Position numbers and translations under genes: made by a program. A stretch of 47,464 bases of DNA from a virus, in the IMG/VR virus record IMGVR_UViG_3300032304_000862, positions 1-47,464 of that record. One strand, given 5' to 3'. This document shows positions 15,920 to 38,700 of this stretch, piece by piece. The notes under the pieces are model-generated. The model did no database searches. It was not told where the DNA came from and saw nothing but the letters and a program-made list of their open reading frames with translations. Within the stretch, counting starts at the first letter, position 1, and every line of letters starts with the position of its first letter.

Positions 15920-16683
15920 GTGATTTCCTCTAGTCTAGGAGCATAGACTCCAATATGTTGTACTGTGATCGACGATGCTTTGTTTGCAAACTTAACAGCA
16001 TCGGGCATGTGTCCAGTTTTCAAAAACTCATATACTAATGCTGCTAAAAATGTATCTCCAGCACCACACACATCAGTTACATCGCCTACAATTTCAGCGG
16101 CATATACCCAACCATTCCATTCTGCACCGTCGCCACCGTGTGTCACAATCAACTGTTCTGGGTCAGGTAAACTTGTTGCACGACTTTTTTCTAATGCATT
16201 AATCTTAACATAACATCCTGCTAGTCTTTCCAAGTCCGTTTTCTTTGTATCTACAAAGATGGGCACGTTGGCTACTTTAACTAGTTCTTCAATAAGTTCA
16301 TAGGTCACTGTGCCTTTGTTGTAGTCACTGATTACAATGGCATCATATCCAGGCGGTATTGCGGTTTCAAATGTGATGGGTTCGCTGGCAACATCTTTGT
16401 CCATACGCAATAATTGTTGCTTGGTACGTGCATCAATTAATCTATTCTTTTCGCTGGATTTGCCGTGTAGAAAGTTAACTGTGCATCCTAATGCTTCTAG
16501 ATTCTTACACACGTTGCCTGCCATGCCATCTTTGTGAATGGTATAGTGCGGTTCAAAGACGGGAACCGGTGCTTCGGGACTGATTCGATTTACATAACCG
16601 TAGGTGTAAATGTCGTGACAGTTGTCACCTATTAGTAATATCCTGAATTGTTTTAGTTGTTGAATAGTCGCTGACTCTGTCAT
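15916..16683 (-). CDS. rfaE1: D-glycero-beta-D-manno-heptose-7-phosphate kinase (HldE kinase-domain type)
   Basis: A 255-aa PfkB-family sugar kinase. The N-terminal ILLIGDNCHDIYTYGYVNR, then RISPEAPVPV (33-42) and MAGNVCKNLEALGC, are characteristic of the HldE/RfaE kinase domain. YDAIVISDYNKG (113-124) and the catalytic GAGD (207-210) are present. It would add the 1-phosphate to heptose 7-phosphate. The protein is shorter than the usual 315-330-aa kinase domain; the missing part lies around residues 75-105, where the segment between strands is reduced. The ATG has an AAAGGT site and lies within the 3' end of the adenylyltransferase gene (59-bp overlap). In E. coli the two domains are fused, kinase first; here they are separate and in reverse order. 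Confidence 0.87.
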   Translation of the reverse strand: MTESATIQQLKQFRILLIGDNCHDIYTYGYVNRISPEAPVPVFEPHYTIHKDGMAGNVCKNLEALGCTVNFLHGKSSEKNRLIDARTKQQLLRMDKDVASEPITFETAIPPGYDAIVISDYNKGTVTYELIEELVKVANVPIFVDTKKTDLERLAGCYVKINALEKSRATSLPDPEQLIVTHGGDGAEWNGWVYAAEIVGDVTDVCGAGDTFLAALVYEFLKTGHMPDAVKFANKASSITVQHIGVYAPRLEEIT

Positions 16684-17023
16684 AATATAATACCTTTGGT
16701 ACGTGTGCTTCGCCTACTATGCGTTGCCCACGATAGTCACTGCCTTTGACCATCACACTTGGTTTGTACAGCTTGATTAATGCTATTAGTTCTTCTTCGC
16801 TATCAAAAAATTCTACAATATCAACAGCTTTTAAATTTTGTAACATCACTCTACGATCAATCTGGGTGTTGATCGGACGGCTTTCGCCTTTTAATTCTCG
16901 AACTCTTCTGTCTGTATCGATGCATACAACAAGATAATCTCCTAGACCACGGGCTGTGTTCAACATAGCAACATGCCCAGGATGCAAAATATCAAATGTG
17001 CCGTTAACTATTATTGTAGACAT
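16625..17023 (-). CDS. rfaE2: D-glycero-beta-D-manno-heptose 1-phosphate adenylyltransferase (HldE C-domain type)
   Basis: A 132-aa cytidylyltransferase-like enzyme that joins AMP from ATP to heptose 1-phosphate. The signature GTFDILHPGH (8-17) is the HxGH nucleotide-binding motif. LKGESRPIN (about 44-52), DRRVMLQNLKAVDIV, MVKGSDYRG and the C-terminal STTKTIQDI follow E. coli HldE's second domain nearly step for step. The protein is complete for this domain. It is the first of three successive heptose genes and starts one base after the upstream oxygenase gene ends. I see no strong Shine-Dalgarno (TTGGATCA only), so translation may be coupled. Confidence 0.9.
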   Translation of the reverse strand: MSTIIVNGTFDILHPGHVAMLNTARGLGDYLVVCIDTDRRVRELKGESRPINTQIDRRVMLQNLKAVDIVEFFDSEEELIALIKLYKPSVMVKGSDYRGQRIVGEAHVPKVLYYDRVSDYSTTKTIQDITNR

Positions 17024-17594: not shown

Positions 17595-17953
17595 CGTTGA
17601 CTATCTCCGGAAAATATTCTAAAATTATCTTCTACTGAATCAGGAGTACTTACTTCAACTATGATTGAATTGTCTTCTAACGCTTCAAGTTGATGTGGTA
17701 ATCCTGCAGGATTATGCCAATTATCACCAGTGTTTAAGATTTTTTCCTGCATCGTGGCAGTCTTTGTGTCTATGTATCTCAATAAAAAACGACCTTGATT
17801 GACATTCCAGCTTTCATCTTTAACCAGATGATAATGCATACTGAACTTGTTGCCAGTCTTGGCGAACACTAGATATTTTCCACAGTATTGATCGGTGGAG
17901 GAAAATATTATTTCGTGTCCCCAACCTTTTTCTATTTTACCAAATAATTTCAT
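17591..17953 (-). CDS. Cupin-fold protein, sugar-phosphate-isomerase-like
   Basis: A 120-aa single-domain cupin. Cupin motif 1 is seen as MHYHLVKDESWNVNQGR (His40, His42 and an acidic pair 46-47), and motif 2 as HNPAGLPHQLEAL (His87). The start KGWGHEIIF and end IIVEVSTPDSVEDNFRI are like the C-terminal cupin of mannose-6-phosphate isomerase/guanylyltransferase proteins and small phage cupins. It may isomerise a sugar or sugar phosphate, or merely bind one. Its place in an operon with heptose genes makes a sugar role plausible. Its stop overlaps the next gene's ATG (ATGA). Confidence 0.75.
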   Translation of the reverse strand: MKLFGKIEKGWGHEIIFSSTDQYCGKYLVFAKTGNKFSMHYHLVKDESWNVNQGRFLLRYIDTKTATMQEKILNTGDNWHNPAGLPHQLEALEDNSIIVEVSTPDSVEDNFRIFSGDSQR

Positions 17954-21018: not shown

Positions 21019-21609
21019 TTAAATAAACATCATCTGATTAATTCTGTAGGCATCTCCGACAAACCAATCAGGCTGCATTACTGCTGTGTGAATATCAGTT
21101 TGTCTATATAATGTCAATCTATTAAAAGCCATTTCTGCATATCCTAGTTGTTGTCCGGTTTCAGAATAAAAAGCTGTACCGCCGTGAGATTCGTCATTGT
21201 AATTTAAATATACCGATGCTGCGAATCTACCCGGATCTGCACTATCTCTGTGAGGAGTTGGCTGGTCTTGCCCTTGCATTACATTTACTATAAATGTTAT
21301 AAACTTGAATGTTTCACGTATGTCTTTGTCGATCTTACGAGGACCGTCATTGAAATTTTCACTGATTAGTTTAACAAACGTATCGGCTAAACTTGTTAGA
21401 TTGATACCAAGACTAATTGACAAGCCAGGGTATGTGTTTCTAATCATGCTCTTGGATGCTGGAATAGAAAGAGCCAATTCTCTAACTTTGTCAGGATTAA
21501 GATAAAAGTTATCAACAATGACACATTTGGTATCACCTAACTGATGTACATGTACTTCAAAATTAGGATTAACTGCAAATATGTCTTGTTCATTTATTTT
21601 TTTAATCAT
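21019..21609 (-). CDS. DUF6445-like 2OG-Fe(II) oxygenase
   Basis: A 196-aa protein with the standard facial triad: His120-x-Asp122 (TPHRDSADPG), distal His174 (TDIHTAV) and Arg189 (DAYRINQ). AASVYLN and HGGTAFY between them are typical of the DUF6445-type phage/bacterial oxygenases. The N-terminus (VIVDNFYLNPDKVRELAL) is the usual lead-in of this family. It overlaps the carbamoyltransferase stop as ATGA. Substrate unknown. Confidence 0.78.
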   Translation of the reverse strand: MIKKINEQDIFAVNPNFEVHVHQLGDTKCVIVDNFYLNPDKVRELALSIPASKSMIRNTYPGLSISLGINLTSLADTFVKLISENFNDGPRKIDKDIRETFKFITFIVNVMQGQDQPTPHRDSADPGRFAASVYLNYNDESHGGTAFYSETGQQLGYAEMAFNRLTLYRQTDIHTAVMQPDWFVGDAYRINQMMFI

Positions 21610-23429
21610 GCTCTGTCATTGTGTTCAATCTCTACCATCATTTTAACAGCTGGAAAATAAATGTAATTAATTCCCGAGTTGTAAAGAGTACGCATAGCAT
21701 CGTCGATGGTTTCGACCAGCGGCTCGCCGCCTAGATTAAAGCTGGTATTAAACAATGCAGGAACGCCTGTTTGATTTTTAAATTCTTTGATTAGATTATA
21801 CCAATGAAAGTTTTGTTCTTCAGTCACTGTTTGAATTCTGCAGGTACCATCAACGTGTATAACTGCTGGGATCTTTTCTTTCACGCCAGGCTGACAATTT
21901 ACAGCATACATCATAGACGGAGAATCTTCCATGCCACGTAGATCAAACCATTCATGTACATCATCTTGTAATACTGATGCAGCAAATGGTCTAAAATATT
22001 CTCGTTTTTTAATTAAATTAACAAAATCTTTACCGTCGGCAAATGTTGGATCAAACATCAGTGATCTATTGCCTAGTGCTCTAGGACCGTTTTCGCATCG
22101 TTCTTGAAACAATGCCACAATGTTTTTAGACCTGATAGTTTTAATAACATCTTTGTAATCAACATTTATTGTTACGCTGCCACCGTATTTGGCCGCAGTT
22201 TCTATAACTGCATCTTCAGTGATATGTTGTACCGGACCTAAAAATAAATTTTCATCTTTTGATCTTACTTTTGTATCTTGAGATGTTTTATAGTAATGAT
22301 AAAATGCTGCACCCATAGCTGTACCTGCATCGTTCGAAACAGGTTCAACATATATCTTTACACCTTCCGGTAAGTGCTGTAGGTAGAAATAGTTGGCAAC
22401 ACAATTCAATCCATACCCGCCGCTGATAACGATATTTTTATTACCTGTACGTTTAATTGATTTTAGAATCAAATCAAGTACTAGTTGTTGCGATTCAGTT
22501 TGGACATTGTAAGCCATGTTTCTTCTAGAAGCCAATTGTGTTAGATCTTCTGCATCAGCTTCCATCATTTGTTGCTCGTAACGCTGCATCTGTCGTTGAT
22601 CGTTAGGGTCAGTCACTGATCTATGAATTACTTTCGGATCGTACACTCTGTCATCTAGCTCAGCATAGCCTTCTTCATTGACCAGTGCGCCGTTAGGATA
22701 TGTACTAGTAAATAGATCTTTATTACCGCCAAAATTACCATAAATCTTAGGTGCTTTGTTCGGTTCTCCGTACGGAAACAGCCCCATAGTTTTACCCGCT
22801 TCTATTGAGTCGAAACCACAAAATCTAGTTACTGCTTCATATGCTTTAACAATACCTGTTTTATCATTAATTATAACTTCTGTACCGTTCCCATTACTAT
22901 TGTAGTGTTCAGTCTTCCAAGGTCCGTTGCCTCCAAAATGCTTGTACACTTCCTCAAAGTTTGCAGGGTATGAACAATCATATATACTTTCAACTTCAAA
23001 CATGGTTTGACCGTCTAGGCGTTCAATAAATGTACCTGCACCATCTACAATGATAGCACTTGCTTTATCAAACCCAGATCTATAAAATGCACATGCGGCG
23101 TGACTTCTATGATGTTGATCGTGATATTTAAATACTTGGGTATTAACATCGTCGATTAATCTCAACTTCCTAGCAAGTGCAGAATACACATCTTGCCTTA
23201 CAAAATCGTTTATTGGTTCGTCATGACCTTGTGTGTGAGATATTACCAAATAATCAATCTTGTCAGTATAGTTAAGAATTTTAATCATACTCGCAAGCGG
23301 GCCGCCGTCATATTTGTAGCGAGATAGTCTTTCTTCTTCAATAGAAAATACAATTTGTCCATCTTTTAAAAGGCAAACTCCTGCATTATGCCCTCGAGCA
23401 ATACCTGCAATGTATCCTGTTTTTTTCAT
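21606..23429 (-). CDS. Carbamoyltransferase, NodU/CmcH/TobZ family
   Basis: A 607-aa enzyme from my chosen start. It transfers a carbamoyl group, made from carbamoyl phosphate and ATP through carbamoyl-AMP, to a hydroxyl of a small molecule or sugar. The N-terminal Kae1-like domain has GHNAGVCLL and the metal/ATP-site cluster HDQHHRSHAA, followed by IIVDGAGT. The C-terminal YrdC-like part has CENGPRALGNRSL and KKREYFRPFAASVL, both highly conserved. Both domains appear complete. I choose ATG 23429, which has AAGGA 6 nt upstream; an in-frame ATG at 23447 would place that site inside the gene. Carbamoylated heptose is known from the Pseudomonas LPS core, a suggestive parallel for this operon. 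Confidence 0.9.
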   Translation of the reverse strand: MKKTGYIAGIARGHNAGVCLLKDGQIVFSIEEERLSRYKYDGGPLASMIKILNYTDKIDYLVISHTQGHDEPINDFVRQDVYSALARKLRLIDDVNTQVFKYHDQHHRSHAACAFYRSGFDKASAIIVDGAGTFIERLDGQTMFEVESIYDCSYPANFEEVYKHFGGNGPWKTEHYNSNGNGTEVIINDKTGIVKAYEAVTRFCGFDSIEAGKTMGLFPYGEPNKAPKIYGNFGGNKDLFTSTYPNGALVNEEGYAELDDRVYDPKVIHRSVTDPNDQRQMQRYEQQMMEADAEDLTQLASRRNMAYNVQTESQQLVLDLILKSIKRTGNKNIVISGGYGLNCVANYFYLQHLPEGVKIYVEPVSNDAGTAMGAAFYHYYKTSQDTKVRSKDENLFLGPVQHITEDAVIETAAKYGGSVTINVDYKDVIKTIRSKNIVALFQERCENGPRALGNRSLMFDPTFADGKDFVNLIKKREYFRPFAASVLQDDVHEWFDLRGMEDSPSMMYAVNCQPGVKEKIPAVIHVDGTCRIQTVTEEQNFHWYNLIKEFKNQTGVPALFNTSFNLGGEPLVETIDDAMRTLYNSGINYIYFPAVKMMVEIEHNDRA

Positions 23430-23452
23430 TATTTTTCCTTGTGACATTTATT

Positions 23453-24553: not shown

Positions 24554-25270
24554 TTAATGAACGCCTGGGGGTAGATTTTGTAAAGCATCAGCATCGGAGG
24601 CATCTCTGTCTGCGATTCTAATAACCTGAACGTGCTCATCTTCAAACTCCATGTTAGGCCCGTCTTCAGGACTCCGCGGAAATCTTACAAGATAATTAGG
24701 AACCTCTAACCAATCGTCGGGAAGGTCTCTGAGTTTTTGTCTATAATCCAACCATTGTTGTTTTAGAGATTCTGGCATATCTGGAGCAATTTTGCCATCA
24801 CTTGCAGCTAGTTTTGAATTTCTTATACTTCTGAGCCATTCATCACTTCTATCTCTTTTATTCTCAAAGAATTTAAGAGGTGCTGTGTAATCTACAGTTA
24901 CGCTGTCTTTGTCATAAACAACTCTAATATCTGAAGGATCTACAACTGTGGCATTTGGTTGATCAACCGGGCCAACAGAAACTTCGTAGATCTTTGGTGC
25001 TTCTAATCCGCCGTAGATCAATCCAATTTTGCAGCAGTTTATGTCAGTGTCTGCTTTTAATATTTCTCTTTTGAGATTCAATGGTAGTGGACGATCGGGT
25101 TCATCTTCTGGTGCATAGGCCTCCATCAAGTACCCAGTTTCTTTATCGAGCCACAAGACTATTTCTTCTGGGCCTTCGTATAACTGTGTACTAGTTTTAC
25201 CTAACGTATTTTCCAACGAATATAAGTAATCCGGTACGCTATATCTCAGCATTTTGGTTATTTTTGCCAT
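24554..25270 (-). CDS. Tail-assembly-chaperone-like protein (Phage_tail_APC-like domain)
   Basis: A 238-aa protein. Residues about 140-200 (RDRSDEWLRSIRNSKLAASD, ... LKQQWLDYRQKLRDLPDDW, ... PNYLVRFPRSPED) closely match the Phage_tail_APC type domain: an R-x-x-R-(N/D)-x-L-L-x-x-(S/T)-D helix, then a W-x-x-Y-R-Q-x-L-R-D-L-P helix and a P. This domain is frequent in fibre-assembly proteins next to receptor-binding proteins. The first 130 residues are a separate region of unknown fold (PDYLYSLENTLG, IVLWLDKETGYL). An AAGGAG ribosome site precedes the ATG. Lying directly after the Cys/Gly-rich pair, it may act as their chaperone or attachment factor. Confidence 0.75.
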   Translation of the reverse strand: MAKITKMLRYSVPDYLYSLENTLGKTSTQLYEGPEEIVLWLDKETGYLMEAYAPEDEPDRPLPLNLKREILKADTDINCCKIGLIYGGLEAPKIYEVSVGPVDQPNATVVDPSDIRVVYDKDSVTVDYTAPLKFFENKRDRSDEWLRSIRNSKLAASDGKIAPDMPESLKQQWLDYRQKLRDLPDDWLEVPNYLVRFPRSPEDGPNMEFEDEHVQVIRIADRDASDADALQNLPPGVH

Positions 25271-25280
25271 TTATTTCTCC

Positions 25281-26108
25281 TTAACTATATGTTATTCTAA
25301 CAAGGCCACCTGCACCGAAACTGCCCCAGCAGGCACTAACTGATGCGGTGGCATGTCCTGCGCCACCGCCACCTGGGAAAGCTGCGTGTGCTGAACAGCA
25401 GGCCAAGTTTCCTACGCACATATGTTTACCGCCAATGCCGTGTCCTGCTGAAATTGGTCCGGAAGGTGAACCTGCAACAGAGAAGTGATCAGCACAGCAG
25501 TCATATTGAGCATTGTATGATCCAGAGGTTCCTCTAAAACACATATCAGATCCGTATACTGGACTATCACAAACGTTGGTAATCCAACCAGCATTGTAGT
25601 TGCCTACGTTGCATTGAACGTTACCAATGTGGCAGTTATAACATTGTGAGATCATGTCCCATGAAGTTGAACCGCCCATGCCACCAATGGCACAGAAGTT
25701 GCTGAGACCAGTGCCATTAACAAAGCTGGTACATCCATGACGGCAATTTTGGTTACATGAACAGCAACAGCTACAATCAGATGATCCAGCAGCACACACC
25801 GTGTACACAGTACCATCTGTAAATCCATTCACTGACTTGGTCAATGTTCTTACGCCATAATTTCCGCCTTGGCCTCCACAGCCGTGATCATAGTCACCAC
25901 CTGATGAACCACCTGGGCCACCACCTGACAGTATTTCAAACTTGATTGAAGTGGTGCCGTTAGGTACTGTCCAAGCGCAACAACGACCTCCGTTTTGAGG
26001 ACTCCAGTTGTTGACGTTCCAAATGTATAATTCATTTAGTTCTGCAATTTTACATTGGTGTTGGCTGTTGCCATAAACGATACCATTGTTCGATAATTGT
26101 ACTGGCAT
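25281..26108 (-). CDS. Cys/Gly-rich putative adhesin, copy 1 (275 aa)
   Basis: A 275-aa protein with 24 cysteines and many Gly-rich turns. Residues 1-50 hold a conserved head (LNELYIWN, NWSPQNGGRCCAW). Next is a glycine-rich domain of phage-fibre type: VPNGTTSIKFEILSGGGPGG (48-67) and a TYTV-like strand, ending FPGGGGAGHA ... GSFGAGGLVRITY (244-274). Between lies a Cys cluster CSCCCSCNQNCRHGC (112-126). The fold class resembles glycine-rich tip adhesins, in which Gly loops carry receptor specificity. The cysteines may form a disulphide net or bind metal. An AAGGAG ribosome site is present. It is a tandem duplicate of the next gene. Confidence 0.75.
   Translation of the reverse strand: MPVQLSNNGIVYGNSQHQCKIAELNELYIWNVNNWSPQNGGRCCAWTVPNGTTSIKFEILSGGGPGGSSGGDYDHGCGGQGGNYGVRTLTKSVNGFTDGTVYTVCAAGSSDCSCCCSCNQNCRHGCTSFVNGTGLSNFCAIGGMGGSTSWDMISQCYNCHIGNVQCNVGNYNAGWITNVCDSPVYGSDMCFRGTSGSYNAQYDCCADHFSVAGSPSGPISAGHGIGGKHMCVGNLACCSAHAAFPGGGGAGHATASVSACWGSFGAGGLVRITYS
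25731..25775 (-). other. Metallothionein-like Cys cluster (coding)
   Basis: These bases encode residues 112-126 of copy 1, C-S-C-C-C-S-C-x3-C-x3-C (8 Cys in 15 residues when the flanks are counted). The cluster is unchanged in copy 2 (+842 bp). Dense clusters like this bind metals such as Zn or Cu in metallothioneins; here they might equally form disulphides. Confidence 0.6.
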
Positions 26109-26122
26109 TTTCTAATTTCTCC

Positions 26123-26950
26123 TTAGATATATGTTATTCTAACAAGGCCGCCTGCGCCGAAACTGCCCCAGCAGGCATTAACTGAGTCAGTTGCATGTCC
26201 TGCGCCGCCTCCCCCTGGGAAAGCTGCGTGTGCTGAACAGCAGGCTAGATTGCCTACGCAGCGATGTTTGCCGCCGATTCCGTGTCCTGCAAAAAACGGA
26301 CCGCTTGGTGAGCCTTGAACTGAGAACGCATCAGCGCAACAGTTGTACTGATGATTATATGACCCAGATGTTCCTCTAAAACATACATCAGATCCGTATA
26401 CTGGACTATCACAAACTTGATTAACCCATGGGCCGTTGTAGTTGCCCACGCTGCATTGAATGTTACCAATGTGGCAGTTATAGCAGTTAGAGATCATGTC
26501 CCATGAAGTTGAACCACCCATGCCACCAATGGCACAGAAGTTGCTCAAGCCAGTGCCATTAACAAAGCTGGTACATCCATGACGGCAATTTTGGTTACAT
26601 GAACAGCAGCAGCTACAATCTGACGAGCCTGCGGCACACACTGTGTATACTGTGCCGTCTGTAAATCCATGTACTGATTTTTGCAGTGTTCTTACGCCGT
26701 AATTTCCGCCTTGCCCGCCAACGCCGTGATCAGAGTCACCACCGGATGAGCCACCTGGACCACCACCTGACAATATTTCAAATCTGATCGAAGTGGTCCC
26801 TGTGGGTACTGCCCAAGCGCAACAACGGCCTCCGTTTTGAGGACTCCAGTTGCTGGCATTCCATATGTATAATTCATTGAGTTCTTCAATGCGGCACTTG
26901 TGTTGCCCGTTGGCAAAAATTATTCCGCAATTCGATAACTGTACTGGCAT
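26123..26950 (-). CDS. Cys/Gly-rich putative adhesin, copy 2 (275 aa)
   Basis: A 275-aa duplicate of the preceding gene, offset by 842 bp, also with 24 Cys and the same Gly-rich loops. Most Cys line up; copy 2 gains Cys8 and loses Cys77 (Val). Differences lie mainly in the N-terminal 30 residues and at about 170-220 (GNYNGPWVNQVC; NHQYNCCADAFSVQGSPSGPFF). The central DNA stretch around 26463-26622 is almost identical to 25621-25780. The duplicates may be an alternate pair of tips or two subunits of one adhesin. An AGAGAG ribosome site precedes the start. Both copies follow the S74 fibre. Confidence 0.75.
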   Translation of the reverse strand: MPVQLSNCGIIFANGQHKCRIEELNELYIWNASNWSPQNGGRCCAWAVPTGTTSIRFEILSGGGPGGSSGGDSDHGVGGQGGNYGVRTLQKSVHGFTDGTVYTVCAAGSSDCSCCCSCNQNCRHGCTSFVNGTGLSNFCAIGGMGGSTSWDMISNCYNCHIGNIQCSVGNYNGPWVNQVCDSPVYGSDVCFRGTSGSYNHQYNCCADAFSVQGSPSGPFFAGHGIGGKHRCVGNLACCSAHAAFPGGGGAGHATDSVNACWGSFGAGGLVRITYI

Positions 26951-26952
26951 TT

Positions 26953-27828
26953 TTAATTCTCTCTTTTCATATCTTCAATTTCTGCTTTTAGAGCCTTAAC
27001 AGCCTCTATCAGCAAGGGAATTAATTTGTCATATCTCACAGCAAGATAGCCGTCTTCTCTTTCGACCACAGCTGATGGTACTATTTCTTTTACTTCTTGA
27101 GCAATAACTCCCACGTCCTGCATGGTGCGTTCTGGGTACATTTCTTGCGCAATTTTATTCCAGTGATATTCATATCCTGATATTTTTAATAATTTTTCTA
27201 GGCTATTATCGATCTTTGAAAGATTTTCTTTTAGTCTGATATCCGACGATGCATATGAATATATATCTGCACCTACATACAATGCTCCACTGATACCAAC
27301 CCCGCCAGTAACAACCAATGTTCCACTAGTGATGTTGCTCGCAGTCTGCGCACCGGCTAAAGTCATTCTACCAGTGCTTGGCTGATATGTCGCTTTGGTA
27401 GTTGACACGTTTGCAGTTGCTAAATTGCCTGAGGTGGAAGTGGTAAACATAACATAGTGGGTGCTTGCCGACGCTGTTTCATCCTGAATTGCAATAGATT
27501 TTGATGTCCAGCTCAATGTTCCAGACGAATTGGTTGTTAGTACTTGACCGTTCGAGCCGTCAGTGGCAGGCAGTGTCCATAACACATCAGCTGTTACTGT
27601 TGCAGGAGCTTGAAATCCTACCCAATTCGAAGAATCAGCATCTCCGAACCTCAGATCGGTCTGTGCATTTAATTGAAAATTTGCAGTAGCAACGACCCGC
27701 CCGGTGCCGCCCGGGCTAAGAGTAATATCTTGATTGGCCGCGGTGGTCAAGGCTTGTTCGGGCGAAATTTGAATAGATCCTACTAGTGCAGGGCTACCCA
27801 CAAGTCCGCTATTGATTTTTCTTGCCAT
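26953..27828 (-). CDS. Tail-fibre protein with S74 intramolecular chaperone
   Basis: A 291-aa fibre protein. The N-terminal ~190 residues are beta-rich shaft (TLSPGGTGRVVATANFQL, LRFGDADSSNWVGF and TGGVGISGALYVG repeats). The C-terminal ~100 residues are a Peptidase_S74 (endosialidase ICA) chaperone: SDIRLKENLSKI (195-206) with the Ser195/Lys200 cleavage pair at the known i, i+5 spacing. GYEYHWN, QDVGVIAQEVKEIVPSAV and AVRYDKLIPLLIEAVKALKAEI (coiled-coil) follow. The chaperone would trimerise the fibre and then cut itself off before Ser195. An AAAGGATAAG ribosome site precedes the ATG. Confidence 0.88.
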   Translation of the reverse strand: MARKINSGLVGSPALVGSIQISPEQALTTAANQDITLSPGGTGRVVATANFQLNAQTDLRFGDADSSNWVGFQAPATVTADVLWTLPATDGSNGQVLTTNSSGTLSWTSKSIAIQDETASASTHYVMFTTSTSGNLATANVSTTKATYQPSTGRMTLAGAQTASNITSGTLVVTGGVGISGALYVGADIYSYASSDIRLKENLSKIDNSLEKLLKISGYEYHWNKIAQEMYPERTMQDVGVIAQEVKEIVPSAVVEREDGYLAVRYDKLIPLLIEAVKALKAEIEDMKREN

Positions 27829-27843
27829 GATCTTATCCTTTTA

Positions 27844-28173
27844 TTAAGCTGTTGCCGTTTCGATACCGTAGACCACAGCATTTACGCTCGAAGCACTGGA
27901 TCTTACCACCAATCTTTTATCTGCATCCATAACAATACCGGTTCTTTCTAGCACACCCTTGGCAGCTAAACTTACATCAAATTCAAGGTATTCCGACGGA
28001 TCAGGGGTTGCTGCCGTTGCCGCAGTGCAAATTGCCACTTGAACGGTAACTGCTGATGCGCTGCGATTACATATGCTGAGTGTTACTACTGCAAATGTAT
28101 TGTCTGGTACGTCATACACCTGGGTGTTGGTCGCCGCTGATAGATTTGCTACTCCTAGTCTTCCTGTTGCCAT
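27844..28173 (-). CDS. Small beta-sandwich virion protein (109 aa)
   Basis: A 109-aa beta-rich protein whose pattern (VVTLSICNRSASAVTVQVAI, then GVLERTGIVMDADKRLVVRSSASSVNAVVYG) is shared with the 110-aa protein at 41762-42094 and the 133-aa protein at 45115-45516. All three have an N/S-rich VTVxI strand followed by a conserved G-I-V/E-R turn and a short final strand. Such proteins are found in fibre clusters of T4-like marine phages. I infer a small sandwich domain for fibre assembly or decoration. It has a CTAAATA promoter and a GGAG ribosome site. Confidence 0.6.
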   Translation of the reverse strand: MATGRLGVANLSAATNTQVYDVPDNTFAVVTLSICNRSASAVTVQVAICTAATAATPDPSEYLEFDVSLAAKGVLERTGIVMDADKRLVVRSSASSVNAVVYGIETATA

Positions 28174-28192: not shown

Positions 28193-28199
28193 TATTTAG
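28193..28199 (-). promoter_or_regulatory. Late promoter CTAAATA
   Basis: CTAAATA on the minus strand, 19 nt before the ATG at 28173, followed by TATACATGGAG with a clear Shine-Dalgarno. It lies in the short gap after the 2510-aa gene and would drive the fibre, adhesin and chaperone genes 28173 to 24554. Confidence 0.65.
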
Positions 28200-31100
28200 T
28201 TCAAAAAGTAATTGAATGCTATAGGCAATCCAATAACACCGCCTCTGAATTCAAAGACTGCATTCATCTTGATTGGTCCTGCAGTTGTGGTAGTGATTAT
28301 GTTAGAGCTGATAAAAATACTACCTGCTGTCACAGAGTTCACGTTCAAGCTAGCACCACCACCACCGATCTGTCCAGCAATAAATGCTTTGATTGCTCGT
28401 TGTGTAGGCACAATATTGTCCGAATCAGCAGTAAAGAACGGATCTGTTGAAAATTCCGTAATAGTAGCTGATCCGCCACCTAGCGTTACGTTGCCTAGGT
28501 TAAGTTCTTGTAGTCCTGAAATATTAAACGCATCAGCATTCAATGTAGCAACACCAGTGCTTTGTTCAATAGCAAACAAGTCGCCAACTCGGAAATTACC
28601 GTCCTGGTCTGTGGATGTAAAGAACACTCGTCCACCGCCTTGTTCCACAGTTTCATTTGCAGGAATTGGCGCTTGCAGTGGTAGTCCTGGGTAATTGGTC
28701 TCTATGAAGCTGCCTGTGCCAATGTCTAAGAAGTCATGTCCCGTGAGTCGAACTTGACTATATTTCAATCGCATAGTAACGGCTGCACCGTCAGGTGGAG
28801 CTTCCGATATAGTAAGTGCAGGACTGAGCTGCAGAAACGCTGTGTAAGATCCGTCATTTGCACCAAGGAATGTGATGACATTCACTAACTTGAATACTCT
28901 GTTAGGCAAATGACTGAATACCACGTTGGAGCCTGGTGTAGGTTGTTGATTGAGTCTGCGAGTGGCCACAAATGTACCAGATTGGAATAGATCTGAATAG
29001 CCGTCGCCGGTGTTTATTTCACCGCTGCCTGTGACAAATTGTGAGCCTCTGTTTACAAAGCTAGGATTGGCCAATACACCACTGTTTTTCCTTACTGTTA
29101 CTGGAGATTCAAATGTGTTGTTAGGATCAGTGAATGTGATGTTAGGCACAGTGGTATAACCTGATCCAGGTTCTGTGATATTGACCTGGAACAGTTTATT
29201 AGCAGCCACTTTGGCGCGACCTCTAGCGGTGGCTCCAGTTCTGATATACGTGGCTGTATCACCTGTGCCGCCTCCAACTCCTACAAACAAGCCGTATCTA
29301 TTTCTGTTACCAAAGGTGATAGCTGAGAAGCCACTAGCTGCTGTGCTGGTAGCTCTTAGAGTCCATGTAACACCATCTGGCGAAGTTGCTGCTGCTGTGG
29401 TTGTGCTCACAGCAAGGAATAATCCCTGACCGTAGGTAACAGATGTCCATAGTGCTGTGGCTGGCAATGTGCTAGCTGCCCATGTAATTCCATCCAAGCT
29501 GTATGCAGCTATAGTTCCGCTGGTGTTTGAAATAGCAACGAATCTATTGTTACCATATGCAATGCTGTTCCAGTTTGAGCTAGAAGGCAATGTGCCTGCA
29601 GTCCAAGTGCCTGTGACTGTGGTCGATGTAGCATGATTAGTTACGTTAGTACCACTCTTGATTGCAACAAATCTGTTTTTACCGTAAGCGATAGCTGTAA
29701 ATCCAGTGGTAGTTAATGTACCAGTTTGATCCCAATTTTCGCCGTCGTTGCTGATTCGCACTGTGGTTACATCGCTAGCTAGTGCTACAAATTTTTGGGC
29801 ACCAAATGTCACATCGACCCATGTAGCAGAAGTCACCATGCTTCTTGCAACCCAGGTAATACCATCTGCACTGTATGCACCTGTTGTGTTGGCGCTTGTG
29901 CCTGCCACTGCTACAAATCTGCTGACTTTGCTCAAAGAAGAATTATCATCAAAAAGACCTACAGCCATAGCATCCCAGTTTGCTGCACTTGGCATCAAGC
30001 TGGCTCTTGTGGTCCATAACTGGCCGTCTTCGGACGTTGCACCCACTGTGCTGCCTGCTCTTAAGGCAACATATCTACCACCAATGCCGTAGCCGCTGTG
30101 ATCAAAGTCTATGATAGCACCTGTGGTAGAATTCACTGCGGTGATTGTGATCACCAAATCGTTGGCAGTGCTGAGGCCGCCTAGACTTGTACCTAAAATA
30201 GTTATAGTCTGTAATCTAACATATCCTGTACCTGCGGTTTGAACAGATGGAGTGTATTTCCATCCGTTGCGCACTACTGTAAATGTAGCGCCTACTCCTG
30301 ATCCTGCATAGGTGCCTATGACTGAGGTATAAACTGCGGCAGTTTCACCATATTTTACAGCTCTCCATGCTCCGCTGGTTGGCAATGTGCTTGCTGTACT
30401 GGTATATCCAGGGGCAGCAAATGTCACTCTCGGCTCAATGATGTATGTAGTAGAAGCATCTGGTGTTACAATTGCTGTGCCTGCTATTAAATGATCAAAT
30501 CCTGCAGTGCCGTCTGATTCTTTAACCAATCCAGCTACTTTAGTACCTGAATTATATGTGTTAATAATACCAAACTGACCTACACCTGCTCCGCCTGTGA
30601 GCACAATCTTCATGCCTATGTAAGCAGTGCTGGATTCTCCGTCTGTAGCAGCGATAGTAACTGAAGTAGAAGTACCGCTCTGTGCAGTGTTAGAGTTGGT
30701 AATATATCCAAAGCCACCAAGATTGCCTTCGGCTTCTGGAGCATTTGTACTATCTTCTACCAAATCCAACATGCGAACTTCAAATACAGCATCGTCACGG
30801 AATTCATCAGTTTCAATAACTTGACCTGAACCGCCACCTGTGATTGTATAGCTAACTTCTGTGTAATCTATGCCAGCATTTTGATATTCTATTTGAATCA
30901 ATGCTGATCCGTTAGTGATTACACGATCAATCACAGCTTCAAACTGTAGTCTGTTATCAACAATACCTGTGTCTGGTGTTTCTGATGCGTCAAATCCTTC
31001 TGCCACAGAACCAAAATCACCGTATGAATTGTTGCCGTTGGTAGCTCTAATACGTCCACCATTCTCTGCTAGGTATGCAATGTGTGCATAGTATGAGAAC

Positions 31101-34100
31101 ACCGATACCAATTCAGCACGACCGTTGTTGGTAATCCAAGCTCCGATACCATCGCTTAGGACCTGTGTAAAGTCATTGCTAACTATAGAATCGTTACCGC
31201 CGTTGTGCAATGCACCGTCAATCTTTTGGCCAACGCAGGCTGTGCCTATGGTGGTTACACCTTGTACATATGGTGAACGTGTGATGATCCATGCACGATA
31301 GTCTTCAGGTCCCCATCCTGGATCAAGAGATGCATATGCACCTGCGGATACTCTTGATGTACCAAATTCATTTTCGGCCAACAAGTCACCAGTAAGTCCT
31401 TGCAGAGTTTGATCTCTAACGCCAGTAGCGTCTCTGAGATAATACATGTCCTCTTCCAAACTGCCTGTTACGCTGTTAGCGTAATATCTAGCTGCATATC
31501 TGGATTTGTAATTACCTGGATATTTCAAATCGTACTTGATTGCATCAATGTAAGTGTTAACATCTCTGAGACAGGCTGTGCTGCTGTAGAACAGAGACAC
31601 AGTCATCGAACCACTGCTGACAGCAGCGATATCAATATCAAACGCTGTGTTTGAATCTCTTGTTGTAGCAATCTTGAAAGTAGTTGCACTGACCACATTC
31701 TGCACATAATAAGTGGTTGTGGTATTCACTCCGCCAAATACGGTACCTGTGAATCTTATAGCAGCATTTCTTGTCATCCATGCTGTTGATGTGCAAGTGA
31801 ATACGTCTGTGGCTTCTGTGGCAGCTGTGACTGTGGTAGTGTATGTTGAATCAATGTACGCATCAATTTCTGATACAATATATGATCTGTTGCGCTCTAA
31901 TTGCAGCACAGCATAATCAACCATTCTGTTGCCAGTGGCACAGCGACTTCCGTCGTTGGTAGCACCGTAGACAATATCATCTAGTGTAGTCATTAATGTT
32001 TCAATACGAGCTTGGGCGGTTGCATCACCACCCACGTTGGCTTTGGCCAATCCTTTTACGTATGCAAACGCTGCACGAGTAGCTGTTTTCTGATTCAGTG
32101 AATACACATCGCTGGCGCTAGCCCGCAGATATGCGTAAGCAGCTTCTCTAGTTTTAAAGTTGCTGTTGAACATAAAGTCAAACATCACTGCTTCTAAGAT
32201 AAGTCTTGTATCTCTTTCGCATTTAGCAGAGTTGTAGACCAGTGCAGGATAGTTAGTGCTGAGATATGTAGTAGCAGCAGCGACTATGGTTTCTTGTGCA
32301 GCATCTAGAGTCACGGCAGCAGCAATCAACGCAGTGGTTGATGTAACAGCATTAGTAGCAGTAGGATAATCTATAACTTCTACAGGTATGCTGATGCCGG
32401 CACCATTGGTAAACGAAGATAACACACTTCCGCCATATGTAGCTGCAAGCTGGAATGTGTTAGTGGTTACTGTGCCTACTACCCAATATTTGACACCGTT
32501 GGTCAATCCGTTGCTAGTTTCTCTCGGAATCACAGCATCGCCTATGCTTAATCCATGATTGTTACTAGTCAACGTGTTCAATGAAGCTATGGTAGTAATT
32601 GTAATCTGTGGTGTTGTAGCCTCAGTGGAGTCACCTTGTATGATATTAGTGATGATGTCTACCAATGCTCCTACTGTGCCAGCAGCGGCGGAACCGCCTG
32701 GTAAATTAGCACTGGTCCATTGAGTAGCAGTATTGCCTGTGGATTTGATCACGCCCGTATTGGCAACGATCAATTGTGCCACAGCCTTTAATCTACCGTA
32801 AGCTGCCACAGTAGCAGCGATTTCTGTGCTGTCAATCTGTAGTGATGAGCTGTTATCTCCGTCAAAGTATGCTGTGCCAGCTACTAGAGTAGCCCAGGTT
32901 CCGCCATAGGTCAAATCATAGCTCATAGCATCAACGATAAATGCTACATCGCGTTTGCATTTGGTTCTGCTGTATTTTACTGTGGGATAGTTTACTGTCA
33001 AAAATGCAGTGATTTCTTCTTTGATAAATTCTTTGTTTTCACGTAACAGTGCTCTTGCATCACCAAATCCTGATAGGAATGATATGTTATATCCTGTGGG
33101 GTCTGCGGAACTCAACATGAATGTAGAGCTGATCTTGAAATCAATCTGATGCTGCATAACTCTAACCAACTGTGCTGCATCTGCTGCTTCGTCGGTACTG
33201 GCATATGGAAATGCTACACTCTGTGTGGCAGTGTTACCGGCGCTTTCTGTGACATTAGCTCCTCTTACAATTTGATCAACCACTGTTTGTAATCTAGTTA
33301 ATGCACCTACACTGTAGCCAGCATCTGATCTATTTGTCAAACTACCTGCAGGACCTGCATTGGTCGAACGCAGTTCGTCTCCTTGTACACAGGTTTGTTC
33401 TGGCACAATGATCGGTAATGTTTCTCTATACTGACCTGTAGCTATATTGATTAGATTGCTAGGACTGTATCTTGCTGGTACACTGGCTATGGCAGCTGCT
33501 ATCTGAGGTGCGGTAACCGCTGCTGCTCTAGCTGTGATAGCATTTGTAATCAGTGTTACACTTGCTGTTATCGTAGGAAGTGCAGTAGTTTCTGCTGTGA
33601 GATCTGCATTGAAATATTGAGCCACTGTGGCAGTGGAATTATCGCCGTTCAGTGTCTGATAATTTATTGTCGGAGCTGTCTGTGCTAAAACATTTCCAAT
33701 AACTGTGAGCATGTAGTTGTAGGCAGCTACTGATTCGTCGCCTTCAATGGCCAATCCTGGATATGCTTCTGTTTCACCTTCGCTGAGTCCGCCAATCAAT
33801 GAATTAGCAACACCGCGTGATTTAACATTGCCACCATGGCACAGATCATAGATCACTGCATCTAATGTAAAGCCTACATCTCGCTCACATTTGAAATCAT
33901 TGTAGACAAATGCTGAAGTAAATGGTGCTGTGTTTGTGGTGATTTGACGCTGAATAAATTCTGTGACTTCGCGTTGAATAAACACACGGTTGAGTTCTAA
34001 CAGATATCTTGCGTCGGGATTGCGAGGACCACGTTCTACCTGTTCACAGGCATATCGAATGGTTTTAAATGGTTTATCCCAAGTTCTGCCATGCACTGGT

Positions 34101-35728
34101 GAAGGCCCGTCAACACCTGTAGTTGCTACAAAATATGTATAATCTGTTTCACCTAGAGTGACCCATTCTGGATCTACTCCTGTAGAAACTAGGACCTGTC
34201 CTTCTCGGCCAATTGGCAGTCTTGTAGGGCCTGAACCGCCGTAGTAAACTAAATCGCCTCTTACTGAAAGAATATCAGTTTCAGATCCTACGCTTAATAG
34301 ACTCCAGTATGTGCCTGTGCTGTCTTGATCGGGTCTGCTGTTGGCTTGGCCGCCGCCAGCTGCGCCTACTGTAGATCCATCGTCGCCTTCTGATCTGTGA
34401 GCTAGCATACAAATATAAGCATTAGCGCCAAATCTCACAGCATCACCTAGCAGATAATCTCTGTCATCTGCCCATAGACCTTGCCAGCTGATACCAGCGT
34501 TGAGACTTGACCAGTATGCGGTGTTTGGTGGTTCTGCTGATACCACAGCAGTCATTGAACCTGATGCGTTTGCAGTAACGTTAAATGTTGCACCGCCTGG
34601 AGTTGTACTCACTGTGATGTTACCGGCTGCTACAGTTTTTACATAATATCTGGATGTGGTAAACACATTGCCAAATGTTGAGCCAGTGAATCTCACTGTC
34701 ATACCTACTACTATGCCTGTGGTATCAGCTATAGTAAATGTATCAGTAGATGCTGTGGCTGCTGTAACAGTATAAGTGTTTGATGGTGAATCTTGTGCTG
34801 CCAAATAAGTATAGCCGCCTACTCTGACTACTTCACCTATCTTGTATGATGTGGTGTTTGTCCATGCAGATTGAAATTTAAACCCTTCTGTATACAGATC
34901 CCATCTAGACGCTTGTGTTGTGGGTGTTTCTGTAACACTTGCGGCAGTATGCACAGTTTTTGCTATGTATTGATTACCGCCATATACAACAATGTCTCCA
35001 GGTTGATACAGAGTTGCATTATTCCATGTGTTTTCAAATTCAGTGCCTTCGGTGAACTGGGTCCAACGACCTGCGCCACTGTCAACTAGGAACGAAGCAT
35101 CTGCGGTATGTTGAATAGCACAGATCCACAGTCCAGCACCGTATTTTACTACATCATTGAGCTTGTATCTAACAGCAGTGGACCATGTGCCTTTGTATTC
35201 TACACCAGGATTGAATGTGTCCCATTTGGCTTGATCTGCTTCCAGACCAGATGCTGCGGTAGAAGCTGAAGTGTGATGAAGATTACACACATAGGTGTAT
35301 CCGCCGTACTTGACTAGGTCATTTACCTTGTAACGAGTAGACGTTGTCCAATTGGTTTTCCAATCAAATCCTTCTGCATACACAGTCCATTTGGCTTGAT
35401 CTTGTTCTAATCCCAACGCAGTGGTAGCTGCAGAAGTGTGACTATCGTTACAAATGTATAGCAGTCCGCCGTACTTGACTACATCGTTGAGTTTGTAAAA
35501 AGTACCAACATTCCAGTCGCCGGTCCACGATTGACCGTCGCTCATTTGATTCCATTTGGTTGGACTGTATTCTAGATCTGTATTAAAATCTGCAGCAGAA
35601 GTATGCCCTACCGCACAAATATATGTGCGAGCACCGTATCTGACAACGTCATCAATATAATATGTTGTTGACGCGGTCCATGTATTCTTCCATACAAATC
35701 GAATTCTACCTAATTTAAATTCTGCCAT
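28196..35728 (-). CDS. Giant fibre-like virion protein A (2510 aa)
   Basis: A modular 2510-aa protein. (1) Residues 1-460: seven Trp/Tyr repeats (KxNDVVKYGGxxYxC..HTS), like CBM5/12 or chitin-binding modules. (2) WDKPFKTIRYACEQV and a pectate-lyase-like beta-helix part. (3) Four helical modules (NKEFIKEEITAFL ... CKRDVAFIVDAMSYDLTYGG and relatives). (4) A conserved stretch QGVTTIGTACVGQKIDGALH followed by SNDFTQVLSDGIGAW (in the 31000-31260 region). (5) About seven propeller-like blades (29215-30085). (6) A C-terminal FRVGDLFAIEQSTG and TDPFFTADSDNIVPTQRA region ending in a hydrophobic tail. It is paralogous to the 1867-aa protein. It probably forms a long proximal fibre or whisker; no enzyme motif is seen. 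Confidence 0.82.
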   Translation of the reverse strand: MAEFKLGRIRFVWKNTWTASTTYYIDDVVRYGARTYICAVGHTSAADFNTDLEYSPTKWNQMSDGQSWTGDWNVGTFYKLNDVVKYGGLLYICNDSHTSAATTALGLEQDQAKWTVYAEGFDWKTNWTTSTRYKVNDLVKYGGYTYVCNLHHTSASTAASGLEADQAKWDTFNPGVEYKGTWSTAVRYKLNDVVKYGAGLWICAIQHTADASFLVDSGAGRWTQFTEGTEFENTWNNATLYQPGDIVVYGGNQYIAKTVHTAASVTETPTTQASRWDLYTEGFKFQSAWTNTTSYKIGEVVRVGGYTYLAAQDSPSNTYTVTAATASTDTFTIADTTGIVVGMTVRFTGSTFGNVFTTSRYYVKTVAAGNITVSTTPGGATFNVTANASGSMTAVVSAEPPNTAYWSSLNAGISWQGLWADDRDYLLGDAVRFGANAYICMLAHRSEGDDGSTVGAAGGGQANSRPDQDSTGTYWSLLSVGSETDILSVRGDLVYYGGSGPTRLPIGREGQVLVSTGVDPEWVTLGETDYTYFVATTGVDGPSPVHGRTWDKPFKTIRYACEQVERGPRNPDARYLLELNRVFIQREVTEFIQRQITTNTAPFTSAFVYNDFKCERDVGFTLDAVIYDLCHGGNVKSRGVANSLIGGLSEGETEAYPGLAIEGDESVAAYNYMLTVIGNVLAQTAPTINYQTLNGDNSTATVAQYFNADLTAETTALPTITASVTLITNAITARAAAVTAPQIAAAIASVPARYSPSNLINIATGQYRETLPIIVPEQTCVQGDELRSTNAGPAGSLTNRSDAGYSVGALTRLQTVVDQIVRGANVTESAGNTATQSVAFPYASTDEAADAAQLVRVMQHQIDFKISSTFMLSSADPTGYNISFLSGFGDARALLRENKEFIKEEITAFLTVNYPTVKYSRTKCKRDVAFIVDAMSYDLTYGGTWATLVAGTAYFDGDNSSSLQIDSTEIAATVAAYGRLKAVAQLIVANTGVIKSTGNTATQWTSANLPGGSAAAGTVGALVDIITNIIQGDSTEATTPQITITTIASLNTLTSNNHGLSIGDAVIPRETSNGLTNGVKYWVVGTVTTNTFQLAATYGGSVLSSFTNGAGISIPVEVIDYPTATNAVTSTTALIAAAVTLDAAQETIVAAATTYLSTNYPALVYNSAKCERDTRLILEAVMFDFMFNSNFKTREAAYAYLRASASDVYSLNQKTATRAAFAYVKGLAKANVGGDATAQARIETLMTTLDDIVYGATNDGSRCATGNRMVDYAVLQLERNRSYIVSEIDAYIDSTYTTTVTAATEATDVFTCTSTAWMTRNAAIRFTGTVFGGVNTTTTYYVQNVVSATTFKIATTRDSNTAFDIDIAAVSSGSMTVSLFYSSTACLRDVNTYIDAIKYDLKYPGNYKSRYAARYYANSVTGSLEEDMYYLRDATGVRDQTLQGLTGDLLAENEFGTSRVSAGAYASLDPGWGPEDYRAWIITRSPYVQGVTTIGTACVGQKIDGALHNGGNDSIVSNDFTQVLSDGIGAWITNNGRAELVSVFSYYAHIAYLAENGGRIRATNGNNSYGDFGSVAEGFDASETPDTGIVDNRLQFEAVIDRVITNGSALIQIEYQNAGIDYTEVSYTITGGGSGQVIETDEFRDDAVFEVRMLDLVEDSTNAPEAEGNLGGFGYITNSNTAQSGTSTSVTIAATDGESSTAYIGMKIVLTGGAGVGQFGIINTYNSGTKVAGLVKESDGTAGFDHLIAGTAIVTPDASTTYIIEPRVTFAAPGYTSTASTLPTSGAWRAVKYGETAAVYTSVIGTYAGSGVGATFTVVRNGWKYTPSVQTAGTGYVRLQTITILGTSLGGLSTANDLVITITAVNSTTGAIIDFDHSGYGIGGRYVALRAGSTVGATSEDGQLWTTRASLMPSAANWDAMAVGLFDDNSSLSKVSRFVAVAGTSANTTGAYSADGITWVARSMVTSATWVDVTFGAQKFVALASDVTTVRISNDGENWDQTGTLTTTGFTAIAYGKNRFVAIKSGTNVTNHATSTTVTGTWTAGTLPSSSNWNSIAYGNNRFVAISNTSGTIAAYSLDGITWAASTLPATALWTSVTYGQGLFLAVSTTTAAATSPDGVTWTLRATSTAASGFSAITFGNRNRYGLFVGVGGGTGDTATYIRTGATARGRAKVAANKLFQVNITEPGSGYTTVPNITFTDPNNTFESPVTVRKNSGVLANPSFVNRGSQFVTGSGEINTGDGYSDLFQSGTFVATRRLNQQPTPGSNVVFSHLPNRVFKLVNVITFLGANDGSYTAFLQLSPALTISEAPPDGAAVTMRLKYSQVRLTGHDFLDIGTGSFIETNYPGLPLQAPIPANETVEQGGGRVFFTSTDQDGNFRVGDLFAIEQSTGVATLNADAFNISGLQELNLGNVTLGGGSATITEFSTDPFFTADSDNIVPTQRAIKAFIAGQIGGGGASLNVNSVTAGSIFISSNIITTTTAGPIKMNAVFEFRGGVIGLPIAFNYFLN
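29215..30085 (-). repeat. About seven propeller-like blades in protein A
   Basis: The repeating unit is (R/K)FVA(V/I)...(A/S)YSxDGxxW...LP...W.SIAYG. I count six clear blades plus a partial seventh, the number of a classic seven-bladed beta-propeller. Fold assignment is inference from the repeat pattern. Confidence 0.65.
34300..35725 (-). repeat. Seven N-terminal Trp/Tyr modules of protein A
   Basis: Seven units of about 45-65 aa, each with a W near the start, then Y(K)xNDVVKYGG(x)YxCxxxHTS and a final W. The sixth carries an inserted beta module. They resemble small chitin/carbohydrate-binding domains. The same unit occurs once inside gp14. Confidence 0.75.
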
Positions 35729-35769: not shown

Positions 35770-38700
35770 TTAGAAAGACTTGTAAAACATTGTTTGTGCT
35801 AACATCAAACCAGTTATTCCAGATGCTGCACCATTAAATTCTGCTACTACCGGTACTATAACACGCAGATTCGCCACGTTGCCGATTCTATCAGGACCTA
35901 CTAGAATAGTACCAGCGATAAAACTGCCTACTGCAATTTCCGAACCACCAACGCTTAATCTTGAAGCAAGATATGCTGCAATGGCACGCTGAGTTGGTAC
36001 TATGTTGTTGGAATCTGCAGTGAACAATGGGTCTGTGGAGAATTCTCGAACCACTGCTCCGGTTCCTCCTACTCTAATACCACCCAATCTCAATTCTGAC
36101 AATCCAGCTAGATCGAAGAAATCAGAACTAATAGTTACTATACCTGTGCTCTGCTCAACAGCAAACAGCTCGCCGACTCGGAAGTTACCGCTTTGGTCAG
36201 TTGAACTATAAAACACCCTGCCTCGATCTAGTTCTACTACTTCGTTTTCTGGAGCAGGGGTATAGAATCCTGCATACAATTCAGGATAATTAGTTTCTTC
36301 AAAATTACCTGTACCTATATCTAAGAAATCGTGACCTGTAATTCTACACTGGCTAAACTGTGATCTAATTGTGATCGCTGTAAGATGTTGTAGATTATCG
36401 CGAACTTTAATTTCTGGCGTAATACGTATTCTTGCAGCTAGTCCTCTATCGGTAGGACCTATCTCTTCAAGGGCCACTAATGTGTATGATCCAGTTAACC
36501 CTGTGATTACTAAATTAGCACCGAGAGTTGGATATGTGGTCAAATCGTTTATGACAATAAATTTACCAAACGGTATAACATCTGCAAATCCGTTGCCGGT
36601 AACTGTGACTGTGGTACTGAGAGTACGATATCCTAGTCCTCGATTAATCCAACTAGTGCTGCCTATAACACCGTCAGCGGTTCTTGTTTCGACAAGTGCT
36701 TCAGTTCCATTGTTAGGATCGACTAATGTACATGTAGGTCCTTGTGTGTATCCTGAGCCCGGATCCCATAATTTCACCGAACGTATGATACCGGAACTTA
36801 GTGTAACTCGTCCCAGGGCTCGTGCACCGGTCTGAATCTTATTGAATTTATCGGTGTTGTCTATGGCTATCCACATTGGTGAGTTTTTGCCTACTGTGGA
36901 ATCTCTAGCATCTATATAAGGATTACCAAATGCCACGCTGACCCATTCTGCAGTAGAAGCCAATGTTCTTGATGTCCATACTATACCATCTGCAGACTGG
37001 GCTGCATAGTTTGAAGGAACTTCCGCAGGATCGGCACCAACATCACGACCCCCAGTGTCACCTATGGCAAAGAACACCCCTTGTGCGTAGCGAATCTTCT
37101 TCCAGTTGTGTGCTGTGCTTCCGTCTTGTGATGGCATAGTAGCTGGCAACCAATCTTCGCCAGTGAAACTGTAGGCTACATCTCCTGTGTTAGATATGGC
37201 AACAAATCTGTCGTTGCCATAAGCAATGCTGACCCAATTTTTGGCGCTGGAATCTGCAATCACATCCATGATGTAAAAATTCCACGACCATGTGTTTAGT
37301 GTAGAGTTGTATGTGCCCTTGGCCACACTGTTTCCATTGTTTCCTAACACCACGTAAGTATTTTTTCCGTAGGCTACATCTGTCCATTCATTAAGAGTAG
37401 AATCGCCTGACGGCAGTGTTACACTAGTCCAACTAGTGCCATTCAAACTGTATGCTGCTGAATTTGAATCAGTGGCTATAGCAATGAACACTCCGCCGCC
37501 GTATATGACTGAATTCCACAGTCGTGATGCTGGCATAGTTCGAGTTGTCCAGTTTATGCCGTCTGGTGAACTAGCTGCAACATTACTGTCTTGACGTATG
37601 GCTACAAATTGATAACTACCTACTGCAGGATAGGTTACTCTACCTGCTGCCAAACATTTCCAGTCGCCTGGAGTTGGCATGTTAAATTGATTCCATTCAA
37701 CACCGTCTTCACTGTAGAGTGCAGCCGATCCGCCTGATGAAACTGCTACAAATCGTCCGCTAGCAGCTTCGTTATCTTCGCCTGTGCCGTAGGTTTTTTG
37801 TTGTGCAGCCAATATTGAATTAGTGCTGTCGTCGCTGACATCAGTAACTAAAATAATTAAATCATTGACTGGTGTTGCACCGCCTAGGAGACTGCCATTA
37901 ATGGTTAGTAGCTGTCCAGCTTGATACCCTGCGCCGCCGTTGTTGATAGTTAGAGTATAATTTCTGCCATGTTTTACCACATTAAATGTGGCTGTTGCTG
38001 CTACAATAGTTCCTAGGGTCGTACCTGTACCGGCTTCAGTGACTGCTATATTAGTATAAGTCTCTGTGGTTTCACCGTAGATTATGTCTTTCCAAGTAGT
38101 GTTAGTTGGAGCAATTACTTCTTGTGCTGAATATTGAGGAGCTGCAAATATCACTCTAGGTTCTATTCTGTATGTGGTGTTGGTCAACAACGGTATTGTA
38201 AGAGGTTTACCAGGAACCACATGATCCCAGCCTGGCTGATCATCGGATTCTCTAGCTACTGTTATTACTTTTGAGATATTGTTGTAGGCAGTGATGTAAC
38301 CATATTGTCCTGTACCTGCGCCACTAGTAATAATAATACGCATGCCGAGATATTGTGTGATGGAGTTTGCATCATTAGAAGCTATAGTAATAGTAGTAGC
38401 ATTGCCTGTTTGTGCGTTGTTCTGTACTAGAATGTATCCACCGCCACCGATGGTCTGCGAAATAAGTGCGGTGCCTGCGTTACCATCTAGTAGTCTAGCT
38501 TCAAATACTGCATCATCTCGAAAATCTTCAAATATCACATCAGCATCAATACCAGCTCCAACAAAGTCAGCTGTCACGCTGGAATAATCTTGTCCTGCAT
38601 TGGTCCATTCTAAAATCTGTATCTCGTCAACAAAGTCCCCAGCAAATGCTGCTGCCACTATGGCCTGTTGTGCTCTGGTGTAGTTTCTTGCTATCACCGG

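Follow-up and report, generated by a model that had tools for sequence, protein, structure and literature searches.

What does a phage do with two adjacent proteins that each carry 24 cysteines, and what are these cysteines for? The question arises in a window of 47,464 nucleotides, the whole stretch of viral DNA analysed here (IMG/VR record IMGVR_UViG_3300032304_000862). If such proteins form the tip of a tail fibre, a tip with 7–12% cysteine that is assembled in the reducing cytoplasm and used extracellularly would pose a question of redox or metal maturation for a part of the virion. A first-pass annotation of the DNA had described two open reading frames of 275 amino acids with 24 Cys each and a Cys cluster at residues 112–126, and had read them as putative receptor-binding proteins. 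Both reading frames are present on the minus strand at 25,281–26,950, and CSCCCSCNQNCRHGC occupies residues 112–126 of the two copies, hereafter A and B. The features on which the following argument draws are listed in minus-strand order.

28196..35728, minus strand: 2510-aa presumed long tail fibre or structural protein, so assigned from its relative place
27844..28173, minus strand: protein of 109 aa, weakly matching tail-fibre PHROGs (phrog_11338)
26953..27828, minus strand: short fibre protein with a C-terminal S74 intramolecular chaperone domain (PF13884, 4.5e-15), directly upstream of A
26123..26950, minus strand: copy A, Cys/Gly-rich protein, 275 aa, 24 Cys (PF21722 Gly_rich_2; phrog_4205)
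26573..26617, minus strand: DNA coding for CSCCCSCNQNCRHGC in copy A, residues 112–126 (computed from residue numbers)
25281..26108, minus strand: copy B, tandem paralogue, 275 aa, 24 Cys (PF21722; phrog_4205)
25731..25775, minus strand: DNA coding for CSCCCSCNQNCRHGC in copy B, residues 112–126 (computed from residue numbers)
24554..25270, minus strand: tail-fibre assembly chaperone (PF16778 Phage_tail_APC at residues 146–186, 5.3e-9; phrog_9740)

The neighbours that the annotation had called an S74 fibre and an APC-like protein are thus both recovered by their Pfam domains, and the order on the minus strand runs from the 2510-aa presumed fibre through the 109-aa protein, the S74 fibre, A, B and the PF16778 chaperone to a GT9-like gene and a carbamoyltransferase.

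In each copy, Cys makes up 8.7% and Gly (50 residues) 18.2% of the 275 amino acids, whereas the remaining likely genes of the window contain 0–2.8% Cys; against an assumed background of 0.9%, the Poisson probability of at least 24 Cys per 275 residues is about 4e-16. The copies are identical at 239 of 275 residues (87%) and at 696 of 828 bases, and their Cys sets differ at two sites, A having C8 and V77 and B having N8 and C77. Synonymous codon differences outnumber non-synonymous ones by 66 to 36, and this excess, together with homologues of similar length in 117 distinct loci, indicates that A and B are real genes. The variable stretches are the N-terminal 50 residues and residues 151–225, and residues 95–154 are free of amino-acid changes. 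Recent gene conversion was considered as the source of this identical stretch and rejected, since the codon bins for residues 101–150 hold 11 synonymous and no non-synonymous differences. Judged from these codon comparisons, the Cys-rich core of A and B is under purifying selection, with the presumed docking and tip regions free to vary.

Both copies belong to a recognizable family. They match Pfam Gly_rich_2 (PF21722) over residues 45–274 with 26.1 and 27.6 bits, above the curated gathering cut-off of 24.3 bits, and phrog_4205, a group of unknown function, at 7.3e-55 and 2.7e-53. A tblastn search with copy A gave no match in cultured phages at E 1e-5, and cyanophage homologues surface at a loose limit. 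Homologues were collected from IMG/VR by scans that returned 35 close loci and, via the S-SSM7 homologue, 52 loci, and by a profile query whose 319 candidates were reduced to the best 80. The cultured carriers are S-SSM7/S-SSM6a, P-SSM2/P-SSM5, S-CAM1, S-CAM3 and Sf-FS3, in which the proteins are mostly annotated as ‘hypothetical’; the cultured cyanophage members that were counted have 24–36 Cys per protein, and the 211 distinct members of the family have 21–36 Cys each (6.8–11.6%). The Cys content singled out by the first-pass annotation therefore does stand far above that of the other window genes, but it is not peculiar to this phage, 21–36 Cys being normal in the family. These Cys/Gly proteins are a widespread, uncharacterised family of aquatic and marine phages, cyanophages among them, and in the literature collection searched no paper linked Cys-rich proteins with cyanophage tail fibres. 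According to a review (PMC2984593), T4 tail-fibre genes, g34 and g37 among them, cannot be recognised in T4-like marine cyanophages, and structural proteins whose function is unknown may take their place. The three-copy cassette was also observed on contigs that had been placed in MAGs of Actinomycetota, Flavobacteriales, Rhodobacteraceae and Euryarchaeota (L096, L097, L098, L099), which are probably mis-binned phage contigs.

The window phage itself is not grouped with Kyanoviridae by its neck protein, which is nearest (about 44% identity) to those of the Pseudomonas (PA5oct type) and Agrobacterium (Atu_ph07) jumbo phages. In a 186-kb relative (L132), the major capsid protein is nearest (67–73%) to those of PA5oct, Sinorhizobium phage Phosso and a Vibrio phage. 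Signs of a cyanobacterial host were sought for the window clade in the form of photosystem (psbA), CpeT and NblA genes, none of which was found in the long related records of the clade. From the neck and capsid affinities and the lack of these genes, we conclude that the cassette is common to Kyanoviridae and to a separate jumbo-like lineage. The family is therefore a candidate receptor-binding tip in several cultured Kyanoviridae as well as in this second lineage, which makes the question testable on phages already in culture.

The gene order is broadly identical in S-SSM7, P-SSM2, S-CAM1 and S-CAM3. An annotated long tail-fibre gene stands at the relative place of the 2510-aa protein in S-SSM7, P-SSM2 and S-CAM3, similar-sized counterparts of the 109-aa protein lie at the matching place in P-SSM2 and S-CAM3, and the window chaperone is 29% identical to the S-SSM7 protein in the equivalent position. 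In a count based on a profile of the chaperones themselves, 116 of 117 distinct loci have a chaperone reading frame near their Cys/Gly genes, and in the sole exception (L052) the contig ends within the last Cys/Gly gene. Writing G for a Cys/Gly gene and A for a chaperone, the architectures are GGGA (57 loci), GGA (25), GA (18, some of them possibly contig-limited), GAGA (13) and others (4). A chaperone-bearing cassette conserved to this extent supports the fibre-tip system that the annotation had proposed, and an adjacent chaperone of the TFA type is also what accompanies the Pam3 gp24-type tip. The two kinds of gene alternate in L136, L159, L165, L170, L140 and P-SSM2 (L039), and L138 repeats the order S74, Cys/Gly, chaperone. 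Alternation is what would be expected of cognate adhesin–chaperone pairs, and it suggests that these units are swapped as pairs. The PF16778 protein at 24554..25270 is the probable cognate chaperone of A and B.

Several other genes of the window were noted in passing. A run of small genes at 17950–21609 matches DUF6445 and families of 2OG-Fe(II) oxygenases, with three matches to PF13759 and one to PF13640 that is below cut-off; a NodU-type carbamoyltransferase (21606–23447) adjoins it, and Syn9 has a similar oxygenase run downstream of its fibre cassette. At 15050–17023 there is an epimerase (PF01370) with two reading frames resembling a sugar kinase and a nucleotidyltransferase, with an overlap of about 60 bases, and beyond the carbamoyltransferase of P-SSM2 and S-CAM1 there are likewise genes for a nucleotidyltransferase and a carbohydrate kinase; the genes at 15050–17023 are possibly a nucleotide-sugar pathway tied to the fibre cassette. 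The N-termini of the 2510-aa protein and of a 1867-aa protein (35770–41373) contain repeats of the form W..xTxY..xDVVxYGGxTYxC..HT that resemble small carbohydrate-binding repeats.

What kind of protein A and B are is indicated most directly by predicted structures. The AF2 model of copy A, built with 85 aligned homologues, has a pLDDT of 67.5 and a pTM of 0.70 and is weakest at residues 112–122, in the Cys cluster, and at 158–183 (pLDDT below 50); a better model, with a pLDDT of 82 and a pTM of 0.79, was obtained for L042 copy 1, a distant homologue. In Foldseek searches the top solved match of both is the tail fibre of cyanophage Pam3 (7ypx), with E 6e-7 for copy A and E 2e-7 for the homologue and a probability of 1.00 in each case, followed by the Bxb1 tail tip and the ALK/LTK TNF-like/glycine-rich domains. 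Among predicted viral structures, copy A is closest to the S-CAM3 and P-SSM2 members of its own family. TM-scores to Pam3 of 0.39–0.55 across the two models correspond to a common core with differing loops and no close match, and at this moderate similarity A and B are placed on the TNF-like plus glycine-rich fold of the Pam3 gp24-type tip. A search of solved chains by sequence with the profile built from A1 gave no match; a phmmer match to 7y9n (36 residues, E 1.6e-4) was taken as chance, since it covers one short stretch of a compositionally biased query and the protein is unrelated. The annotation had named lack of a glycine-rich tip fold in models as one outcome that would speak against it; the Pam3 match in two models, with a PF21722 score above cut-off, points to the presence of such a fold.

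The Cys/Gly protein is thus probably a tail-fibre tip adhesin with which the phage grasps its host, made with its own chaperone. The joint explanation, in which A and B are Pam3 gp24-like fibre-tip adhesins with a cognate chaperone and loops stiffened by Cys, is in our judgement very likely. It builds on homology, conservation of the cassette, the fold match and the constraint on Cys, all of which were computed here. Presence in the virion, docking, receptor binding, pairing with the chaperone and all of the Cys chemistry are parts that we infer. A and B would be paralogous receptor-binding tips, each docked to a fibre by a short variable N-terminus (about residues 1–40). Their strands would begin at ‘CCxWTVPxGxxxIxFE’ and be followed by a lattice of glycine loops, which a C-terminal ‘GGLVRITY’ strand would close; the variable loops at about 150–225 would probably be the tip that contacts the host. 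The downstream PF16778 protein would fold A and B as gp25 does gp24 in Pam3. Some of the copies in L159, L170 and P-SSM2 have a longer, helical-looking N-terminus (e.g. MDILTLGKMNEMAK...) that may act, like the helix of Pam3 gp24, in trimerisation or docking.

Family-wide, Cys is the most retained residue in all identity bins above 25%, ahead of Gly and Trp: the retained fractions are 0.96, 0.89 and 0.85, respectively, at 80–90% identity, and 0.82, 0.64 and 0.53 at 45–65% identity. Because Cys is the best-retained residue in nearly all comparisons, we take the Cys content to be functional. Conservation reaches at least 98% at 20 Cys positions within the window clade and at 21 within the S-SSM7 clade. 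If all Cys were paired, gains and losses should come in pairs and the count should stay constant and even, and neither pattern was found. On parsimony trees of the two clades, a single change is seen on 12 of 15 Cys-changing branches for the window clade and on 30 of 52 for the S-SSM7 clade, there is no convincingly recurrent Cys pair, and odd Cys counts are about as frequent as even ones among the homologues. An obligate disulphide for every Cys is therefore disfavoured, and the peripheral Cys are likely to stand outside obligate intramolecular pairs; for this part of the set, the disulphide lock after release that the annotation had envisaged is weakened. The invariant Cys core could, from its conservation, form disulphide cross-links or bind metal. 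We propose that the Cys are a conserved structural element that would stiffen the loop lattice, with a core of about 20 most likely disulphide-linked, or partly metal-bound, after lysis and a few peripheral Cys unpaired. The role would then be ordinary and the chemistry unusual, and a redox or metal lock is put forward as a hypothesis.

One rival would have the Cys around 112–126, with nearby His and Cys, bind zinc or iron, so that the tip is locked by metal and not by disulphides. The window clade preserves the CxCCCxCxxxCxxxC run and its neighbouring His well, residues 112, 114, 115, 116, 118 and 126 each being Cys in at least 98% of members, and single gains and losses of the other Cys fit metal sites more easily than obligate pairs. 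However, the run is for the most part a feature of this clade (in the wider family, only 15–18% of members have Cys at each of 114, 115, 118 and 122), Pfam and PHROG searches matched A and B to no metal-binding family, and the model is least certain at the cluster itself, so that we consider such a lock somewhat improbable.

A second alternative concerns the number of subunits. In a tree of 90 members, copies 1, 2 and 3 of the S-SSM7 type form largely position-specific clades that are kept across many lineages, and the copies of S-CAM1, S-CAM3 and L099 do so separately. Such long separation is compatible with a set of adhesins that differ in target and equally with subunits of a common tip. 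In the latter case the two or three tandem paralogues would assemble into one hetero-oligomeric tip, which might be a heterotrimer in place of the homotrimer of Pam3 gp24. Three distinct paralogues in fixed order with one chaperone, as in the 57 GGGA loci, are consistent with this. On the other side, copy number is 1, 2 or 3, with single-copy loci that have their chaperone, and in the 13 GAGA loci each of two copies has its own chaperone, so the tip need not be a fixed assembly of three subunits. Within the window clade, copy A DNA is 90.5% identical to the orthologous copy in L001 and 81.6% to the paralogous one, and the pattern of orthology with L010 is mixed; by sequence, A and B seem to keep a separate identity only among near relatives. 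A hetero-oligomeric tip is accordingly a minority possibility, about on a par with the metal lock. A little less probable still is a combination in several lineages, in which a core of about 20 Cys is reduced during assembly and oxidised or metal-bound after release, with two or three paralogues forming one hetero-oligomeric tip; if true, this would be a redox-matured, multi-subunit receptor binder.

In phage T4, gp38 acts only during assembly. That A and B are likewise fibre assembly or accessory factors outside the virion is quite improbable, even though ‘tail fiber assembly’ is the annotation of the Syn9 homologues and virion data turned up for none of the Cys-rich members, since a separate, recognisable assembly chaperone adjoins the Cys/Gly genes in all complete loci and the fold is matched by the tail tip of Bxb1 and by the adhesive portion of gp24, which in Pam3 is a virion protein (PMC9608196).

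The tip adhesin reading can finally be set beside known systems. The long-tail-fibre tip adhesin gp38 of Salmonella phage S16 and of T2-type phages, named as similar to Pam3 gp24 (PMC9608196), resembles A and B in its glycine-rich loop tip, in which receptor binding resides; it differs in that S16 gp38 (6F45) is absent among the 50 matches listed for either model. Syn9 gp38 and gp39 share the PF21722 domain and a similar fibre-end cassette, and the A1 profile matches Syn9 gp38 at E 7e-5, but they contain just 2 and 7 Cys, which makes Cys enrichment a property of the family and not of the fold. In Pam3, gp24 and gp25 (PDB 7ypx, 7yfw) combine a TNF-like plus glycine-rich domain at the fibre end with a paired assembly chaperone, as proposed for A, B and the PF16778 protein. 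As chaperone, gp25 wraps around the distal portion of gp24, virion mass spectrometry detected gp24 and not gp25, and the paper never mentions cysteine (PMC9608196). Identity of A and B to gp24 is only about 16%, with the TM-scores given above, and Pam3 has one simplified fibre, whereas in the window a large presumed fibre gene and a separate S74 fibre precede the two tandem paralogues. Further counterparts are the ‘hypothetical’ phrog_4205 proteins of Kyanoviridae, which differ in identity (about 30% or less), copy number (2 or 3) and length (261–356 aa), and yet are likewise tandem and Cys-rich, in cassettes that share with the window the long fibre, the Cys/Gly genes, the chaperone, the GT9-like gene and the carbamoyltransferase.
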